In this document: positions 12,035 to 48,128 of the stretch, in pieces
How positions within the stretch are numbered: the stretch's first letter is position 1
How the letters are laid out: each line of letters opens with the position of its first letter
NCBI RefSeq assembly: GCF_000626675.1
Contig: NZ_CP006842.1
Coordinates: 2,914,001-2,978,000 of the forward strand
Reading direction: 5' to 3'
From: Corynebacterium glyciniphilum AJ 3170
GTDB lineage: Bacteria; Actinomycetota; Actinomycetes; Mycobacteriales; Mycobacteriaceae
Length of the DNA: 64,000 nucleotides
Program-made: the position numbers and the translations under genes
Notes under the pieces: generated by a model
Databases searched by the model: none
What the model was told of the DNA's origin: nothing
What the model saw: the letters and a program-made list of their open reading frames with translations, nothing else

Positions 12035-12166
12035 ATGGCCCCAGATCACCGGAAGCCCCCACCACGCGTGTTGGTCATCATCATCAGCATCGCATTCACC
12101 CTCCTCGCCATTCCCGGCGGCGCTGTCGTCGCGCTGTTCATCATCTCCCTGATACTCAGGATCTAG
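12035..12166 (+). CDS. 43-residue hydrophobic membrane peptide
   Basis: Short ORF with GGAG 8 bases before the ATG. After a basic, proline-rich start (MAPDHRKPPPR) it has a single hydrophobic stretch, residues 12-41, rich in Val, Ile and Leu. This fits a one-pass membrane peptide. It sits between two strong terminators, so it would be its own small transcript or run into the convergent terminator of the porin-like gene. No family recognised. Codon use and composition are plausible but the length makes this tentative. Confidence 0.45.
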   Translation: MAPDHRKPPPRVLVIIISIAFTLLAIPGGAVVALFIISLILRI

Positions 12167-12207
12167 ATGTTAGTGCCACGGCGACCCGTGCTTCTGGAAC
12201 GCAAAGA

Positions 12208-12229
12208 CCCCCGCACCGAGGTGCGGGGG
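12208..12229 (-). terminator. Terminator of the 31-residue porin-like gene
   Basis: CCCCCGCACC pairs with GGTGCGGGGG around a GA centre (12208-12229). Read on the minus strand it is followed by TCTTTGC, and it starts 21 bases after the TAA of the small gene. It could also stop plus-strand transcription of the 43-residue gene. Confidence 0.75.
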
Positions 12230-12250
12230 CTATTAATTCGCTAGTGCGAA

Positions 12251-12346
12251 TTAGGCAGCGCCGTTGAAGGAGCCGACGACAGCCTGGAAGACGGAGACGA
12301 TAGCCTCGGAAACGGTGGAGATGATGGCCTGAATGGTGTCGATCAT
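12251..12346 (-). CDS. 31-residue amphipathic peptide, candidate mycomembrane porin (PorA/PorH-like)
   Basis: The ORF starts MIDTIQAIISTVSEAIVSVF and ends SFNGAA, TAA. A ribosome binding site (AAGGGAAG) sits 6 bases before the ATG and a strong terminator 21 bases after the stop. There is no signal peptide, no Cys, no basic residue at all, and net charge is acidic. Hydrophobic and polar residues alternate as in an amphipathic helix. Known Corynebacterium PorA/PorH channel peptides share these traits: 30-60 residues, no signal sequence, acidic, helical, found in the mycolate outer membrane. Sequence identity with them is not claimed. Alternative: a small secreted or regulatory peptide. Confidence 0.65.
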   Translation of the reverse strand: MIDTIQAIISTVSEAIVSVFQAVVGSFNGAA

Positions 12347-12783
12347 GATGATCTTCCCTTCGGTAGAAGTGTGGTTTCGCGTCCCAGTGTTCTGAGCCGC
12401 ACGATGGACCATACCGGTGGGGGAATATGTTTCGTTACACGAGGATATTACCTACCCCCATACGGGTTAGGGTTCTTTATACCAGCTGGTCAGGGTCCTA
12501 CAAACGCGAATAGGCGCACACCCTCTCCGCCGTTGCGGATCGTGGTGTGCGCCTATCCAGAAAGGCGATACATGATCGATGTGTATCAGATGCGGGGGCC
12601 ATCCAGACCCCCTGCACCTAGGACGTTATCCCTCGAAAAATGATCCGCCGAATCGGCACACCCCCGGGGGTAGTGAATGCTGGTCGGCCTGCTCATCGAC
12701 TCTCGGCACCTGCACACGTCGGGGAGAGAGACAGCGTCCAAGGAGCAGGCGCGGGGTGGGCGAACCTGGAAAACGTGGGAACG
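12347..12783. other. Intergenic region holding the porin-like promoter and a large inverted repeat
   Basis: This region must contain the promoter of the 31-residue gene, read leftwards. AT-rich stretches occur at 12421-12480. Possible -10 hexamers on the minus strand include TATGGT (12408-12413), but no clear -35 is seen. A 13-bp inverted repeat lies at 12510-12555. A 23-codon ORF at 12572 is not convincing. Otherwise no gene is seen. Confidence 0.5.
12510..12555. repeat. 13-bp perfect inverted repeat
   Basis: ATAGGCGCACACC (12510-12522) and GGTGTGCGCCTAT (12543-12555) are exact reverse complements, with a 20-base loop that itself contains CCGCCGTTGCGG, able to form a small inner hairpin. 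No T-run follows on either strand, so a standard terminator is unlikely. It lies about 165 bases upstream of the porin-like start. Confidence 0.7.
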
Positions 12784-45292: not shown

Positions 45293-46213
45293 TCAGTCCC
45301 CGATCTGGTCTCGTCCGCGCTTCACGATCTTCGGGTCCGGCTGGCCGACCACGTCGTAGTCTTTACCCGTGTAGTTGAACTTGCTCAGCACATACCGCAT
45401 CGCATTGAGCCTGGCACGCTTCTTGTCATTCGACTTGATCGTGATCCACGGCGATTCATTGGTATCGGTGTAGCGGAACTGTTCCTCCTTGGCCCGGGTG
45501 TAGTCGTCCCATTTGTCCAGGGACGCCAGATCCATCGGTGAAAGCTTCCACTGCCGTACCGGGTCAACCTGACGGATGGCGAACCGGGTCCGCTGTTCCT
45601 TCTGTGTCACCGAGAACCACAGTTTGGTCAGACTGATGTCGGATCCCATGAGCATGTTCTCCAGCATCGGCACCTCGCGCAGGAACTCCGCGTGCTGGTC
45701 GTCCGTGCAGAAGCCCATCACGCGCTCCACGCCTGACCGGTTGTACCAGGACCGGTCGAAGAAGACGATCTCACCGGCACACGGGAAATTCTGGATGTAG
45801 CGCTGGAAGTACCAGGAGGTCGACTCCCGCGGACTCGGCTTCTCCAGGGCGACGGTCCGCGCACCACGGGGGTTGAGGTGTTCATTGAACCGCTTGATCG
45901 TCCCGCCCTTGCCGGCGGCGTCGCGGCCTTCGAAAAGGATGATGTGCTTCTGGCCGGTGTCCTTCGTCCAGTTCTGCCACTTCAGCAACTCGATCTGGAG
46001 AGACCTCTTCGTGGTCTCGTACTCCTCGCGGCTGAGACGCTCCTCGTAGGGGTAGTTCTCCCGCCACGTGTCGACGCGGTGCCCGTCCGGCGTGATCAGG
46101 ACCGGATCGTCCTCATCCGAGTCATCGACGATGTAGCCCTCAGTCGCCGCCAGATCGACGATGTGGAAGTCCTGCTCGTCCGGTGCGCCCTGATCGCTAC
46201 TGTCCTTGGTCAT
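45293..46213 (-). CDS. ppk2: Polyphosphate kinase 2
   Basis: PPK2 transfers phosphate between polyphosphate and nucleotides. Walker A is FEGRDAAGKGG and Walker B FFDRSWYNR; the lid region RSGVERVMGFC follows. 306 residues, single-domain class I type. Its stop is adjacent to that of the convergent MarR gene. In several corynebacteria PorA-type porin genes lie between ppk2 and groEL; the 166-base gap here holds no such ORF. Confidence 0.95.
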   Translation of the reverse strand: MTKDSSDQGAPDEQDFHIVDLAATEGYIVDDSDEDDPVLITPDGHRVDTWRENYPYEERLSREEYETTKRSLQIELLKWQNWTKDTGQKHIILFEGRDAAGKGGTIKRFNEHLNPRGARTVALEKPSPRESTSWYFQRYIQNFPCAGEIVFFDRSWYNRSGVERVMGFCTDDQHAEFLREVPMLENMLMGSDISLTKLWFSVTQKEQRTRFAIRQVDPVRQWKLSPMDLASLDKWDDYTRAKEEQFRYTDTNESPWITIKSNDKKRARLNAMRYVLSKFNYTGKDYDVVGQPDPKIVKRGRDQIGD

Positions 46214-46266
46214 GCTTCCATGCTAATGGTTCTCCGACGTCACCACACGGCTCCGGAGACGGGTCA

Positions 46267-46294
46267 CCCCCGCTCACGACGAGCTGAGCGGGGG
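46267..46294 (-). terminator. Likely groEL terminator
   Basis: CCCCCGCTCA pairs with TGAGCGGGGG around an 8-base loop, 85 bases after the groEL stop. There is no T-run on the minus strand, so it may act only as an mRNA-stabilising hairpin. Confidence 0.5.
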
Positions 46295-46379
46295 CGGATA
46301 CAGGTCGACCCCGTCTCTATCCCACACATGTCATCGTGGAACGAGCCGGGGTCAGAGGACCGGACGAATCAGAGACGGA

Positions 46380-48128
<1,749 letters not shown>

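Follow-up and report, generated by a model that had tools for sequence, protein, structure and literature searches.

The locus examined here raises the question of whether a reading frame of 31 codons is a gene and, if so, whether its product belongs in the mycomembrane. The window, i.e., the whole 64,000-nucleotide stretch of Corynebacterium glyciniphilum AJ 3170 DNA that was analysed, carries this frame on its minus strand, and an initial annotation made from the letters alone had proposed it as a candidate mycomembrane porin short enough for gene callers to miss. PMC12632848 treats the passage of leaderless helical peptides through the inner membrane, and their assembly into mycomembrane channels, as an open question.

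The window gene and its transcription unit

The window gene is a real gene, and the following elements were assigned to its transcription unit.

12251..12346 including the stop, minus strand: 31-codon peptide gene, family member (nine paralogues in its own genome and family alignments)
12353..12360, minus strand: ribosome binding site AAGGGAAG (equivalent in other copies mostly CGAAAGG)
12412..12438, minus strand: sigma-D-type promoter GTAACG (12438-12433)-N16-CGGTA (12416-12412) (consensus from excerpts of PMC6338062)
12234..12253, minus strand: 8-bp hairpin containing the stop codon (by folding; similar GTCGC-ACTA-GCGAC after several other copies)
12207..12230, minus strand: rho-independent terminator hairpin, then TCTTT (by folding; stem starting 20-21 nt past the stop)

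The frame (12254-12346, stop codon at 12251-12253) reads MIDTIQAIISTVSEAIVSVFQAVVGSFNGAA, a peptide of net charge -2 in which K, R and H are all absent and which has no signal peptide; on these features, as on the ribosome binding site and terminator, the initial annotation was correct. Folding of the gene's 3' end, which comprises two hairpins, gave -32.1 kcal/mol; shuffles averaged -12.8 (z -7.1), and 0 of 200 did as well. The 5' leader folded no better than its shuffles (z -1.2), and 65 nt separate the promoter -10 from the ATG. The ORF is in fact called, as database protein P0023, though only in a 53-aa form from an upstream ATG at 12412; the ATG at 12412 touches the promoter -10 (12416-12412), and the 31-aa start is favoured by the family alignment.

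The inverted repeat at or just past the stop, seen also at loci such as L057 and L089, reads TTCGC-ACTA-GCGAA in the window copy and GTCGC-ACTA-GCGAC in some others, i.e., with paired changes. Upstream of the promoter, 12510-12672 lies inside a segment common to C. glyciniphilum DE0385 (G003) and Corynebacterium sp. CNJ-954 (G194) and contains, at 12510-12556, a strong inverted repeat. Parts of this DNA have matches upstream of other copies, and it may be a small RNA or an additional regulatory unit. A 43-aa ORF on the plus strand (12035-12166) with a long hydrophobic stretch (MAPDHRKPPPRVLVIIISIAF...) had no Pfam match, and the DNA around it is conserved in DE0385 and CNJ-954. Nothing was found by Rfam at gathering thresholds in the 64-kb window.

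A lineage-expanded peptide family

The initial annotation had implied a single gene, whereas its genome (G000, 3.57 Mb) carries nine copies, the window gene and four tandem pairs, and the gene is part of a large paralogous family. The search of relatives that it had proposed bore the gene out: widened profiles, run on 242 Corynebacterium genomes, located the family at 54 places in 8 of them, with up to 13 copies each (G000, 9; DE0385, 7; CNJ-954, 13; G207, 13; G133, 5; G075, 3; G163, 3; G024, 1), although the window site itself is without the cassette in DE0385 and CNJ-954. The G133 count includes two identical halves at two contig ends, possibly one gene, and the matches of the three G163 copies are weak (E 4e-4 to 1e-3).

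At E<=0.03, profile A4 matched 13 genomes, eight of which were accepted. Matches in G253 and G195 were rejected as parts of large ORFs, and those in G101, G236 and G243, which are plausible single members, were left out of the 54. Profile A3 at E<=1 matched 101 of 242 genomes, a count that mixes in weak matches; those in G010 and G131 look, by their motifs, like D-aminoacyl-tRNA deacylase. Among the proteins matched in database searches (51 at E<=1; 47 at E<=10; the sets overlap and include the genomes' own proteins) are P0023 and one named from C. stationis. Six family members run against Pfam and NCBIfam gave nothing above cut-off (NCBIfam, two weak chance matches), the window peptide as a single query at E<=0.01 had no match in 24 non-Corynebacterium genomes from the same order, and the window segment had no match in a plasmid collection. 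No description of the family was found in the open-licence literature searched.

Sequence types mostly follow genomes, MIETIQ being found in G000, DE0385 and CNJ-954, MLDIVS in G207, MIDTI in G075 and G163, and MSAIAEIL in G133. The pN/pS ratio was 0.83 among MIETIQ-type peptides (403 pairs) and 1.10 in G207 (77 pairs); purifying pressure on the peptides is not strong, and the evidence for coding therefore does not rest on purifying selection. Ratios near 1 are what a chance ORF would give, but that explanation has practically nothing left to it and is refuted by the paralogues in the same genome, by the agreement of the 54 places in start context and in range of lengths, by an RBS-like core before 53 of 53 readable starts (broad pattern), by a terminator-like hairpin within 110 nt after 50 of 53 readable ends and by the 51 database proteins. 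The family of tiny, predicted helical peptides is fast-changing and apparently undescribed.

All 54 peptides carry a net charge of -1 to -6, contain no more than one basic residue (K, R or H) and exceed their shuffles in hydrophobic moment at 100 degrees (z>1.64; mean z 4.6; window peptide 0.51, z 4.7). Lengths were 27-33 aa in 51 of 54 and 37, 39 and 46 aa in the remaining three; two are cut by contig ends. The small, leaderless, net acidic and amphipathic character of PorA/PorH/PorACj-type porins is thus present in 54 of 54 by composition and moment, the helix being predicted. Tandem clusters hold 46 of the 54 copies, with 173-843 bp between neighbours. Ser or Thr is present in every peptide and [GSD]S follows residue 20 in 50 of 54; according to excerpts of PMC11066868, no strict motif is known for O-mycoloylation. 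In the genome of the window gene, five matches to PF00756, a broader esterase family than the mycoloyltransferases, were obtained at E<=1e-20.

Promoter pattern and sigma-D

Many copies have in common the upstream pattern GTAAC[G/A]-N16-CG[G/A/C]TA. Its strict form, TAAC-N17-CG-N-TA within 150 nt, was found in 26 of 51 upstream regions (53 readable minus two near-identical); 200 dinucleotide shuffles gave an expectation of 0.09 and never more than 2. The 26 are not independent cases, because many of the 51 regions are homologous. The strict form is lacking in 25 of 51 regions, and a relaxed form in three of the nine own-genome copies. Within the 64-kb window, on both strands, the strict form occurs once, at 12438 on the minus strand, upstream of the window gene.

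Genome-wide, GTAACRN16CGNTA gave 11 sites in the organism's own genome versus 10 for a reversed-pattern control, so the promoter signal is in where the sites lie and not in their total. Family copies follow five of the 11; the chance of five falling inside nine 150-nt targets is ~1e-16 by arithmetic that treats homologous copies as independent. One site precedes an rsdA-like gene (PF16751 below the Pfam cut-off), which follows an ECF sigma factor passing the NCBIfam ShbA cut-off; one precedes a PF00756 (mycoloyltransferase-like) gene; and one precedes an AMP-binding gene resembling FadD, for which NCBIfam ranks FadD12 and FadD2 highest, both falling far short of their cut-offs. Of the remaining three, two are the two strands of a palindromic place at hisD and one lies near an IS481 fragment.

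The sigma-D motif of C. glutamicum is given as GTAAC[A/G] and GAT, with a PrsdA spacing of GTAAC-15-CTCGAT, in excerpts of PMC6338062, and the own-genome rsdA site has exactly this published spacing. The window promoter matches the -35 and the spacing exactly and reads GGT in the -10 where the consensus is GAT, a pattern that may be used by sigma-D. In C. glutamicum, sigD overexpression raises porH and mycoloyltransferase genes (PMC5508688, in part), and the sigma-D regulon includes porA, porH and ProtX (PMC11175481, in part). The family pattern was found within 300 nt of 0 of 42 canonical porA/porH genes, which puts the regulation of the family closer to ProtX and the mycoloyltransferases than to the porins.

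A CCCCC..GGGGG palindrome (TACCCCCGGGGGTA-like) stands before the promoter of many copies (e.g., L052, L055, L057 and L058) and is a possible operator.

The canonical porin locus

The usual porin position beside groEL and ppk2 had been described as empty in this genome, and it is.

46214..46379, strand not applicable: groEL2-ppk2 gap, canonical porA/porH position (166 bp, no porin-like ORF)
46380-48068, minus strand: groEL2
45293-46213, minus strand: ppk2

The window gene lies ~34 kb from this gap and not between the two genes. The survey of the gap covered the window and 59 further genomes (an additional genome, G017, had no ppk2 match), and 42 of the 60 contained an acidic amphipathic small ORF in it by the filter applied. 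Short empty gaps (144-313 bp) were found in ten genomes, of which six belong to the family set (G000, DE0385, CNJ-954, G133, G207 and G024, with gaps of 164-224 bp; 6 of 8 family genomes) and four had no accepted family match (G028, G013, G001 and G007). Longer gaps without a candidate were seen in G033 and G009, and in G070 and G151 groEL2 lay beyond the flank and there was no candidate. The gap was not parsed in G130, G121, G075 and G030, though G130 and G121 nonetheless show porin-like ORFs. G163 has a porin-like ORF at the canonical locus as well as its three weakly matched family copies, and canonical-locus ORFs are also present in G101, G236, G243, G253 and G195. Since the family genomes are related, the empty-locus pattern may reflect few events.

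The single porin-like ORFs at groEL2-ppk2 in G258, G163, G101 and G243 (L101, L210, L211 and L212) have a common FFGGF-x-DVFSGL-type core and are a distinct single-gene porin type.

Relocation, neighbouring genes and prophages

Comparison of the window site with DE0385 and CNJ-954 defined three stretches.

12203..12672, strand not applicable: cassette (82% identical to the ppk2-paralogue locus of DE0385)
12262..12672, strand not applicable: cassette part (83% identical to the ppk2-paralogue locus of CNJ-954)
12171..12780, strand not applicable: stretch without counterpart in the fadD-fadE intergenic region of DE0385 and CNJ-954 (250-280 bp of other DNA there)

The cassette, being present at the ppk2-paralogue locus of both genomes and absent from their fadD-fadE gap, has moved, or else was lost at fadD-fadE. 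Its position inside a fatty-acid activation block had been read as a clue to mycoloylation; this clue does not hold up, for both genomes keep the flanking genes without the peptide and carry a matching cassette elsewhere, and the fatty-acid context therefore looks accidental. One pair of copies lies ~2.2 kb from a second PPK2 gene (L052 4561-4960, 7133-8026), and the same locus has copies in DE0385, CNJ-954 and G207.

One cluster lies ~5.2 kb from a PF00756 gene in five genomes (G000, DE0385, CNJ-954, G133 and G207). There, identity to G000 is 91-98% for the neighbouring acyl-CoA oxidase and the DNA upstream of the first peptide gene is alignable between divergent types (62-78%, z 8.8-19.9), whereas in-register identity between peptides of different types is only 34-48%. 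Of the neighbours compared for synteny, the acyl-CoA oxidase alone is used, since some of the other query ORFs lacked a Pfam match and may be read from the wrong strand. Away from this locus (C77 of DE0385 against C8 of CNJ-954), the upstream regions are 96% identical and the peptides 59%. With upstream DNA conserved and peptides divergent, the coding sequences have been replaced or diversified inside conserved regulatory frames.

In CNJ-954, two predicted proviruses each carry a copy at the 3' end, downstream of an endolysin gene and sharing its strand; in one of them the copy comes after a holin-like gene.

L055 5108-5206: provirus-end copy, CNJ-954 (also L158, L159)
L057 5141-5233: provirus-end copy, CNJ-954 (also L158, L159)

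Searched against a phage collection, the window peptide had no match and a MIDTI-type peptide had two irrelevant weak matches; a viral scan with G207-type peptides gave none. The multi-copy, relocating and partly prophage-borne organisation of the family is unusual.

A relative beside an endolysin-like fragment on a metagenomic viral contig (L239) was not counted, as the start of the contig looks chimeric; it holds what we take to be rRNA-like and acyl-CoA-dehydrogenase-like letters. The fadE-adjacent region of G207 (L149) contains a reading frame which, by its motifs, is presumably integrase-like.

Comparison with described peptides

The family PSSM was scored on six comparison ORFs against class-preserving shuffles, and homology to PorA/PorH/PorACj-type porins was not found among them: those from G130, G258 and G163 and the PorA and PorH of G094 gave p 0.32-0.68, and G010 was marginal at p 0.04. 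ProtX, for which 30 of 38 residues were readable from primers, gave p 0.0065 against full shuffles and 0.39 against class-preserving shuffles. On these scores, the family is described here as working like a leaderless mycomembrane peptide, with no claim that it belongs to PorA/PorH or ProtX.

The PorA/PorH peptides of C. glutamicum resemble the family in being leaderless, small and helical, and porH is raised by sigD overexpression; they differ in forming a two-gene operon at groEL2-ppk2, and no sequence homology to the family was shown by those of the C. glutamicum-like genome G094. They are mycoloylated with the help of Cmt1/MytC, according to published work, and loss of porA/porH is reported to give kanamycin resistance. 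PorACj of C. jeikeium (40 aa, reported with its own RBS and terminator) and PorACur of C. urealyticum (37 aa, channel-forming; PMC5944148, in part) are likewise small, leaderless, helical peptides, and for each a single peptide is sufficient for channels in vitro, of about 1-3 nS in 1 M KCl. The shared features extend to an own RBS and terminator in the case of PorACj. Their genes lie between groEL2 and ppk2, whereas the window gene lies elsewhere, and the PorACj-like ORF of G130 showed no homology to the family profile. The family is multi-copy and 51 of its 54 members are shorter than both; as the initial annotation had remarked, 31 residues is below the described sizes.

ProtX (cg2875) of C. 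glutamicum is similar in being leaderless, in its amphipathic pattern and in having a Ser near the C-terminus, and it belongs to the sigma-D regulon where the family has a sigma-D-type promoter. Primer sequences give the protX 5' leader as GAAAGAGAGATCACA-ATG, which closely resembles the leaders of some family copies (GAAAGAGAGATCATC-ATG). The peptide sequences differ in that their similarity is no better than the amphipathic pattern alone provides, and an expansion of protX paralogues is not mentioned in the passages on ProtX that were available.

Staphylococcal phenol-soluble modulins are leaderless, amphipathic, multi-copy peptides with a dedicated ABC exporter. They are like the family in the first three properties and unlike it in that the family has an envelope-type promoter and a mycolata-specific setting.

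Proposed function and alternatives

The family probably consists of mycomembrane peptides that work like PorA, PorH or ProtX. Placement in the mycomembrane is supported by the sigma-D-type promoter, the empty porin locus in 6 of 8 genomes, the leaderless acidic amphipathic peptides and the mycoloyltransferase-like gene ~5.2 kb from one cluster in five genomes; this much of the initial proposal stands, and membership of PorA/PorH is not borne out by sequence. From these features we infer sigma-D use, export, mycoloylation, membrane location and oligomerisation. The window gene is one of nine cassettes in a lineage-expanded family, its own having a sigma-D-type promoter, a short leader, a strong RBS, about 30 codons and a terminator. 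Mycomembrane stress would bring sigma-D RNA polymerase to the window gene and to many other copies, and the peptides, having no signal sequence, would pass the inner membrane by the same route as PorA, PorH and ProtX. They would receive an O-mycoloyl group on Ser or Thr, the likeliest site being the [GSD]-S close to the C-terminus, and would enter the mycomembrane as amphipathic helices; ~29 residues make a helix of roughly 43 A, which could just span it. Oligomers with apolar residues towards the lipid and Ser, Thr and acidic residues inward may then substitute for PorA/PorH where the canonical locus is empty. Pore formation is plausible since PorACur, at 37 aa, does so (PMC5944148, in part), but it is the least certain step, and we put it at slightly less than an even chance.

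An unlikely alternative is that the peptides are structural or surface components like ProtX that make no pore and whose variation is driven by phages using such peptides as receptors. This alternative has the mycomembrane location in common with the best explanation, and the confidences given to the two overlap. It draws on what the available parts of PMC5310785, PMC11175481 and PMC9671496 say of ProtX, namely that this leaderless 38-aa peptide is mycoloylated on Ser37, belongs to the sigma-D regulon and is required for adsorption of phage Cog of C. glutamicum, which needs PorA for infection. The resemblance of the leaders GAAAGAGAGATCACA and GAAAGAGAGATCATC fits, as do the low peptide identity at the syntenic locus beside a highly conserved acyl-CoA oxidase and the two copies at prophage ends. 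Against it, the ProtX similarity is explained by the amphipathic pattern alone under class-preserving shuffles, and the emptiness of the porin locus points to a porin's task for some copies.

Secreted surfactant or cytolytic peptides analogous to phenol-soluble modulins would match in size, in the missing leader, in tandem arrangement and in hydrophobic moment, but would leave the sigma-D-type promoter and the mycoloyltransferase-like neighbour unaccounted for, and no exporter was seen among the few neighbours sampled; this reading is improbable. More improbable still are type I toxin-like or bacteriocin-like peptides, for which short hydrophobic tandem ORFs, strong terminators and the two prophage-borne copies could be cited; the polar face is acidic, up to 13 copies stand under an envelope-type promoter and the window has no Rfam match at gathering thresholds, all of which speak against them.

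As an extension of the mycomembrane-peptide reading, we tentatively suggest, with confidence well short of even, a variable mycomembrane surface system: relocating, promoter-bearing cassettes would supply sigma-D-driven peptides that are swapped or diversified while their regulatory DNA is conserved, some of them carried by prophages in a lysogenic-conversion position. The peptides would both replace PorA/PorH and change phage receptors. Prophage-borne copies would tie mycomembrane proteins to lysogenic conversion and to phage-receptor change, and a species that has 7-13 substitutes and nothing at the porin locus would show that the mycomembrane porin is replaceable. The dozens of natural variants of ~30 residues would offer a smaller working unit than the described porins and an alignment for oligomer modelling.
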